DNA of 64,000 bases, from NCBI RefSeq assembly GCF_000800805.1, contig NZ_CP010070.1:806001-870000 (forward strand), written 5' to 3'. The stretch is from Candidatus Methanoplasma termitum. GTDB taxonomy: Archaea > Thermoplasmatota > Thermoplasmata > Methanomassiliicoccales > Methanomethylophilaceae. Below, one piece after another: positions 38,849-39,658 of the stretch. The notes under the pieces were generated by a model, which saw nothing but the letters and a program-made list of their open reading frames with translations, was not told the DNA's origin and did not search any database. The position numbers and the translations under genes were made by a program. Position 1 is the first letter of the stretch. Each line of letters opens with the position of its first letter.

Positions 38849-39658
38849 TCAAACACCCGTTTTTTTATGATCTGTTGCATTATCTGACCGAGCGTAACGC
38901 ATTCCTCCGTCGGAATCCGACGAACGCTCAACGATCATTTCTGATAAACATGAATAAATCGCGGAAAGTTCTGAACCTGGGGCACCTTCCACAACGGTCT
39001 TGCCTATTGTTTCGCATTGCTGAACTGTCTTATCGCGAGGTATCCTCTAAATTACCTCTGTCCCCATTTCGGATGCGGCCTTTTCGACAAACTTGTCCTC
39101 ATCGTCCACCCCCCTGGAATTCTGCACTATTCCTCCCAGCGCAGCATATCCGCTGTGACTGAGATCGGAAATCGCCGTTGCGATGTTGTTCGCTGCGTAG
39201 AGAGACATCATCTCTCCCGATGAAATAACGAAAACGTCCCTTGCGTAGCCATTCCTTATCGGCATGGCAAAACCGCCGCAAACGACATCCCCAAGAACAT
39301 CATATATCACAATATCCGGAGAGATCTGCTCTATTATGCCGCATTTTTCAAGCTCTTCGAAAGCTGCGATTATCCCTCTGCCCGCACATCCGGACCCGGG
39401 CCTGGGGCCCCCGCATTCGGCACAATAACACCCGTACGCTCCCCTGAGTATCGCCTATTCTATAGGAGTATTGCTTTTTACCGCATGCAATATGGTCATC
39501 GGTGGCCTCCCGCCGAGCAATAGTTTTGTTGAATCCGCTTTCGGATCGCACCCGATCTGCAGGACCTTGTATCCTTTTTTTGAAAGGGCTGCGGTAACAT
39601 TCGCTGCGACCGTTGATTTCCCTATTCCGCCTTTGCCGTAGATCGCAATTCTACGCAT
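38849..39658 (-). CDS. cfbC: CfbC, NifH-like reductase of F430 synthesis with two in-frame amber codons
   Basis: CfbC is the ATP-dependent iron protein that delivers electrons to CfbD. Read with TAG as sense, the gene gives a normal 269-aa NifH-family protein: P-loop GKGGIGKST, first cluster Cys91 in GSGCAGRG, second cluster Cys127 in GDVVCGGF, and the C-terminal [17 protein letters not shown]. TAGs occur at codon 68 (39455-39457) and codon 204 (39047-39049). No frame change occurs between the parts, and no TAA or TGA appears before 38849. The second amber lies just before the conserved IPRD. Stopping at the first one would remove both cluster ligands. The final TGA is one base from the cfbA ATG. 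Confidence 0.9.

Follow-up and report, generated by a model that had tools for sequence, protein, structure and literature searches.

In-frame amber codons in the coenzyme F430 genes cfbC and cfbA of Candidatus Methanoplasma termitum and their probable decoding as pyrrolysine

The cfbC gene of Candidatus Methanoplasma termitum carries TAG at codons 68 and 204 and the adjoining cfbA gene carries TAG at codon 108. Judged from the gene sequences, these three codons are very probably translated as pyrrolysine (Pyl), giving full-length proteins. Both genes lie in the window, i.e., the whole stretch of 64,000 nucleotides analyzed here, in a five-gene minus-strand cluster of the order cfbC-cfbA-cfbE-cfbD-cfbB, so that cfbC is accompanied by cfbD in the same cluster. 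According to PMC7242693, the route from sirohydrochlorin to F430 consists of nickel insertion by CfbA, amidation by CfbB, reduction by CfbC together with CfbD, and closure of the last ring by CfbE. By its sequence, CfbC is predicted to act with CfbD in the reduction of Ni-sirohydrochlorin a,c-diamide. The same genome also contains mcrA. The features of the cluster, in window coordinates, are as follows.

38849..39658, minus strand: cfbC, NifH-like reductase of F430 synthesis, 269 aa with TAG counted as a residue, ending in TGA
39455..39457, minus strand: TAG, cfbC codon 68
39047..39049, minus strand: TAG, cfbC codon 204
38062..38847, minus strand: cfbA, two-domain sirohydrochlorin nickelochelatase, 261 aa, one in-frame TAG
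38524..38526, minus strand: TAG, cfbA codon 108, in the first domain
36872..38074, minus strand: cfbE, coenzyme F430 synthase, without in-frame TAG
35802..36875, minus strand: cfbD, partner of CfbC, without in-frame TAG
34483..35805, minus strand: cfbB, Ni-sirohydrochlorin a,c-diamide synthase, without in-frame TAG

Amber codons of the cfb operon

A previous sequence-only reading of this DNA had described two TAG codons in one frame of cfbC with no TAA or TGA, and the read-through translation of 269 aa followed by TGA agrees with it; the third TAG of the operon, at cfbA codon 108, was absent from that description, as was the location of cfbC on the minus strand. TAG is the only type of internal stop in cfbC and cfbA, with no TAA, TGA, or frameshift before the final TGA, while the standard code gives uninterrupted frames for cfbE, cfbD, and cfbB. 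The tight spacing claimed for the cfbC/cfbA junction was also seen, the TGA of cfbC ending at 38849 and cfbA beginning at 38847. The NifH signature of CfbC, comprising the P-loop and both cluster cysteines (C91 and C127), was as reported and proved invariant in an alignment of eight sequences. The motif IPRDKTVQ does belong to the C-terminal part of the protein, but at residues 206-213 and not at its very end, as had been stated.

Profile comparisons placed cfbD at 376 bits, above its model cut-off of 268, and cfbC at 307.8 bits against NCBIfam NF033200, for which the curated cut-off is 402. Since all eight intact orthologues tested from the same order also scored below this value (297-344 bits), the cut-off has no discriminating value here. 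The coding score of cfbC codons 205-269 is below zero, yet the same 65 codons align well with those of relatives, and the comparison with relatives indicates that homology runs on in frame past TAG.

Pyrrolysine machinery and TAG usage in the genome

The genome consists of one contig of 1,488,669 bases and is 99.96% complete. The pyl genes, which the sequence-only reading had proposed to look for, were found outside the window: pylS (269 bits, cut-off 178), pylB (462, 348), pylC (334, 248), and pylD (203, 150) adjoin one another at about 603-607 kb, and all exceed their NCBIfam cut-offs. Upstream of pylS lies a putative tRNA(Pyl) gene of 72 bases, whose ends match and which shows CCA, a CUCUAAA loop, and the anticodon CUA. 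This pylT-like gene was recognized by eye, and neither ARAGORN nor Rfam reported one; its loop closes, again by eye, on a stem with one mismatch. An imperfect tRNA(Pyl) is mentioned in PMC3941956. The pyl region further contains two methylamine-methyltransferase-type genes with an in-frame TAG in the context MA[MI]-TAG-GP[EN]TPLSAAGRL, for which NCBIfam gave no match at E 1e-20. We take these two genes to be of the dimethylamine type, MtbB.

TAG is a rare gene end in this genome. Among 706 mechanical gene calls (888 kb, 60% of the genome), TGA closed 492, TAA 202, and TAG 12, and with looser settings TAG ended 17 of 757 calls. Seven of these 17 were pieces of interrupted genes and six had another stop within 12 codons; of the other four, three are questionable ORFs in our judgment, and in the fourth, L050 (225 aa), TAG looks like the genuine terminator. 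Because of this last gene, whose long extension beyond the TAG scores as non-coding, we do not propose that TAG serves as a sense codon throughout the genome. Separately, a 176-aa gene present in two copies (window 3753-4283 and L189:11925-12455), probably a mobile element, terminates at TAG, and a further stop follows three codons later.

In the same 888 kb, an in-frame TAG was present in 53 ORFs, of which 10 genes were retained (two methyltransferase-type and eight others) and 43 were set aside by eye, either because the TAG lay upstream of a plausible start or near the end, or because the ORF had no family. Besides the methyltransferase-type genes, this left nine sense-like TAGs in eight genes: cfbC (two), cfbA, ramA (codon 2), and those for a DUF6951 protein, a nucleotidyltransferase, a peptide with a double-glycine-like leader, a transposase, and a beta-helix protein (in its signal peptide). 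The TAGs of the DUF6951, nucleotidyltransferase, transposase, and signal-peptide genes were judged by domain or start context rather than by comparison with relatives. Other TAG-bearing genes of this sample, e.g., ramA, the DUF6951 gene, and the nucleotidyltransferase gene, seem intact on read-through. A noisy homology scan covering half the genome of one relative gave interior stops of all three types (five TAG, four TGA, one TAA); two of the five TAG rows were dropped as upstream of the start, and the TGA and TAA rows were judged by eye to be over-extended or wrong-frame ORFs. A TAG pair near L201:15.3 kb was dropped for lying upstream of a plausible start.

Several of these loci merit a short description. 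The ramA gene (L008:9694-11310, about 609.7-611.3 kb) begins ATG TAG TAT, while an 82%-identical copy in another genome (G013) begins ATG AGA TAC; Pyl thus seems to occupy position 2 of the corrinoid activase RamA. A second ramA without TAG, 47% identical, lies at 539 kb. The genome has three copies of the DUF6951 gene, and the one at L187:5550-5873 (minus strand) reaches full length only when its TAG, at codon 48, is read through. At L051:15782-16111 (plus strand), codon 12 of the gene for the small hydrophobic protein with the double-glycine-like leader is TAG, in place of Glu in a relative (G005), and at L192:17003-19570 (minus strand), a beta-helix surface-type protein has TAG within its apparent signal peptide. 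The phosphoglycerate kinase gene (L040:16588-17883, minus strand) carries an in-frame TAG upstream of its domain, and the interval contains no ATG, GTG, or TTG, as would fit translation from an unusual start codon or read-through of the TAG; no counterpart of it was present in the G005 stretches compared.

TAG sites in relatives, constraint and possible substitutes

Altogether, 101 genomes including the present one were searched, 97 of which had some NifH-type match. The search gave 29 CfbC loci in relatives, all of which were inspected, and 27 of 28 cfbA matches were long enough to use. The sequence-only reading had asked whether TAG is conserved in related cfbC genes: TAG occurred in none of the 29 loci at codon 68 or 204, both sites being sense codons throughout, and in none of the 27 relatives at cfbA site 108. 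The residue at cfbC codon 68 is Asp in 18 relatives, Glu in six, Gly in three, and Ser and Val in one each, so that Pyl would be a non-conservative change at a site where 24 of 29 relatives have Glu or Asp. Codon 204 is highly variable, with 11 different residues across the 29 relatives, and cfbA codon 108 shows eight across 27, including Gln (CAG) in eight. One base separates TAG from each of GAG, AAG, and CAG. The internal stops flagged in some relatives' NifH-type matches were natural gene ends within the 29 loci inspected.

These data are consistent with the following scheme, in which a tRNA(Pyl) with the anticodon CUA, charged by PylS, would insert Pyl at TAG 68 and 204 of cfbC and at TAG 108 of cfbA. 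In a lineage with efficient amber decoding, base changes at tolerant positions may have converted sense codons to TAG, and the new TAGs would have been retained by near-neutral drift since Pyl is tolerated there. That the TAGs might instead be sequencing or assembly errors is scarcely credible: the three operon TAGs come without any other stop or frameshift, two of them sit at highly variable positions, a like TAG pattern occurs in further genes, and the genome is a nearly complete single contig.

Three of the nine sense-like TAGs fall within 1.6 kb, an event with a chance of about 0.001 under random placement in an assumed 740 kb of coding DNA, although this calculation was made post hoc. The clustering could reflect a selected switch, in which the three ambers sense the Pyl supply and restrict the synthesis of CfbC and CfbA to times of Pyl availability. 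The cofactor of methyl-coenzyme M reductase would then be built only while the Pyl machinery runs, coupling F430 synthesis to methylamine use. The TAG at codon 2 of ramA, a methylamine-pathway gene, missing in the nearest relative compared, fits this proposal. However, none of the 29 relatives examined shares the TAGs, whereas conservation might be expected of a regulatory device, and clustering would also follow if extra TAGs cost little in a Pyl-dependent pathway. We regard a selected switch as very improbable and favor the view that one Pyl-requiring gene would make further ambers in the same pathway cheap.

Searching the entire genome at the protein and DNA levels revealed no second cfbC, including the intact TAG-free copy that the sequence-only reading had envisaged as a counterargument. 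The sole other good NifH match, 48% identical, is the front part of a 726-aa fusion protein encoded at the following locus.

L009:3916-7361 (genome position 361.9 kb): NifH-NifD fusion gene and a downstream nitrogenase-component-1-like gene

NifH matches in similar frames of 700-850 aa are found in many relatives. This fusion is central to another explanation, according to which cfbC is a recent pseudogene replaced by the NifH part of the fusion, while cfbA is covered by a second CfbA at 737 kb. Indeed, the NifH part outscores cfbC of the window on the CfbC model (334 vs 307.8 bits), the second CfbA is an intact single-domain protein (130 bits, cut-off 120), and in-frame Met codons are present downstream of the TAG in the second domain of cfbA. 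On the other hand, a low CfbC-model score is common to all eight intact relatives, and the fusion pairs with that of G005 (support 0.955), a genome whose own cfbC is intact. Since G005 carries both a related fusion and an intact cfbC, the fusion is unlikely to be a replacement born in this lineage. In the same unrooted tree, the present cfbC falls inside the genus clade (support 1.0) and the fusions form a clade of their own (support 1.0), with the exception that the cfbC of L146 joins the fusions with a support of 0.29. From its sequence, the fusion is conceivable as a stand-in reductase for CfbC, though this is unlikely. The second CfbA adjoins genes that read as cobA- and hemD-like and may act in the chemistry of cobalt or sirohaem; its existence makes the dependence on decoding less certain for cfbA than for cfbC.

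Loss of cfbC with retention of cfbD was sought in other genomes and found no backing, as the mcrA-positive metagenome-assembled genomes without a cfbC match (G015, G021, G022, G023, and G034) also lacked a cfbD above the cut-off; in these five, the two genes are missing either through an assembly gap or through real absence. In G017, an assembly of 180 contigs, cfbD is present with a weak NifH match only, and the cfb genes are arranged differently.

The substitution pattern also bears on the pseudogene explanation. Of 95 sites that are invariant across 16 relatives, the present cfbC departs at one; for cfbA, with 14 relatives and 30 such sites, there is no departure. On a fixed 14-taxon tree, the branch leading to this species measures 0.228 for cfbC, 0.238 for cfbA, 0.260 for cfbE, 0.243 for cfbD, and 0.253 for cfbB, and as a share of the tree it amounts to 4.7% for cfbC vs 3.2-5.4% for the other four genes. 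When unconstrained decay of cfbC was simulated until two stops arose, a mean of 12.5-17.7 invariant sites was altered, one or none was altered in 1-2.5% of runs, and both stops were TAG in 15-18% of runs; the same test for cfbA alone is weak (19-25%). The dN/dS ratio was set aside, as synonymous sites were saturated or not computable. Thus cfbC looks constrained and not accelerated relative to its operon neighbors, its invariant sites are kept, and neither it nor cfbA contains a frameshift, TAA, or TGA. Substitution counts alone leave room for very recent decay, since even the nearest six relatives are only 71-77% identical. Weighing these points together, we consider the pseudogene explanation unlikely and decoding of the TAGs as Pyl the best account of the data. 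The sequence-only reading had arrived at the same proposal, which now draws on (i) the pyl cassette, (ii) the sense codons in relatives, (iii) the constrained frame, and (iv) the lack of a second cfbC; from these we infer Pyl in the proteins.

Consequences and known systems

Provided that nothing can stand in for CfbC, as is likely, F430 synthesis and hence methanogenesis would depend on amber decoding in this species. No key cofactor would then be made without it, even on methanol, and the Pyl cassette would be essential to methanogenesis itself, beyond methylamine use. Under standard annotation, cfbC would be called a pseudogene and the F430 step falsely reported as missing. Furthermore, a single essential operon may offer a simple test case for the change from stop to sense codon via read-through.

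In the methylamine methyltransferase genes mtmB, mtbB, and mttB, Pyl is conserved and catalytic. The cfb TAGs would be read as Pyl by the same cassette, but they are lineage-specific and stand at sites that vary in relatives. Another related case is the tRNA-His guanylyltransferase of a Methanosarcina, a housekeeping protein that reportedly acquired Pyl by neutral evolution; the gene is a different one, and here cfbC has two TAGs and cfbA one. Kivenson and co-workers are said to have found in 2025 that some archaea read all TAG codons as Pyl. A 1.94-Mb genome of our set (G037), presumably that of ISO4-H5, has one TAG in its NifH-NifD fusion and sense codons at both cfbC sites. For ISO4-H5, PMC5011839 lists 46 genes with an in-frame amber, among them a "predicted nitrogenase gene (AR505_1289)"; this is probably the fusion gene, so that the amber, in contrast to the present case, would not lie in cfbC.

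No paper joining pyrrolysine with cfbC was found in a literature search covering few subscription papers, and the available part of PMC10804542, on Pyl, makes no mention of a Pyl-containing cfb gene. The novelty asserted by the sequence-only reading was nevertheless too strong. Borrel et al. (2014; PMC4153887) gave 16 non-methyltransferase candidates for Pyl proteins in 'Ca. Methanomethylophilus alvus', where the share of TAG stops is 1.6%, and proposed that Pyl decoding becomes essential through the ambers carried by proteins of major function. As here, TAG occurs there in otherwise intact genes, some of them highly conserved, and half have TAG-less homologues; by contrast, Table 7 of that work contains no gene annotated as cfb, although several are hypothetical, and its section 12 describes no operon with three TAGs (PMC4153887). 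Hence, the kind of event proposed here was already known, whereas the gene concerned, cfbC, and the presence of three TAGs in one operon look new.
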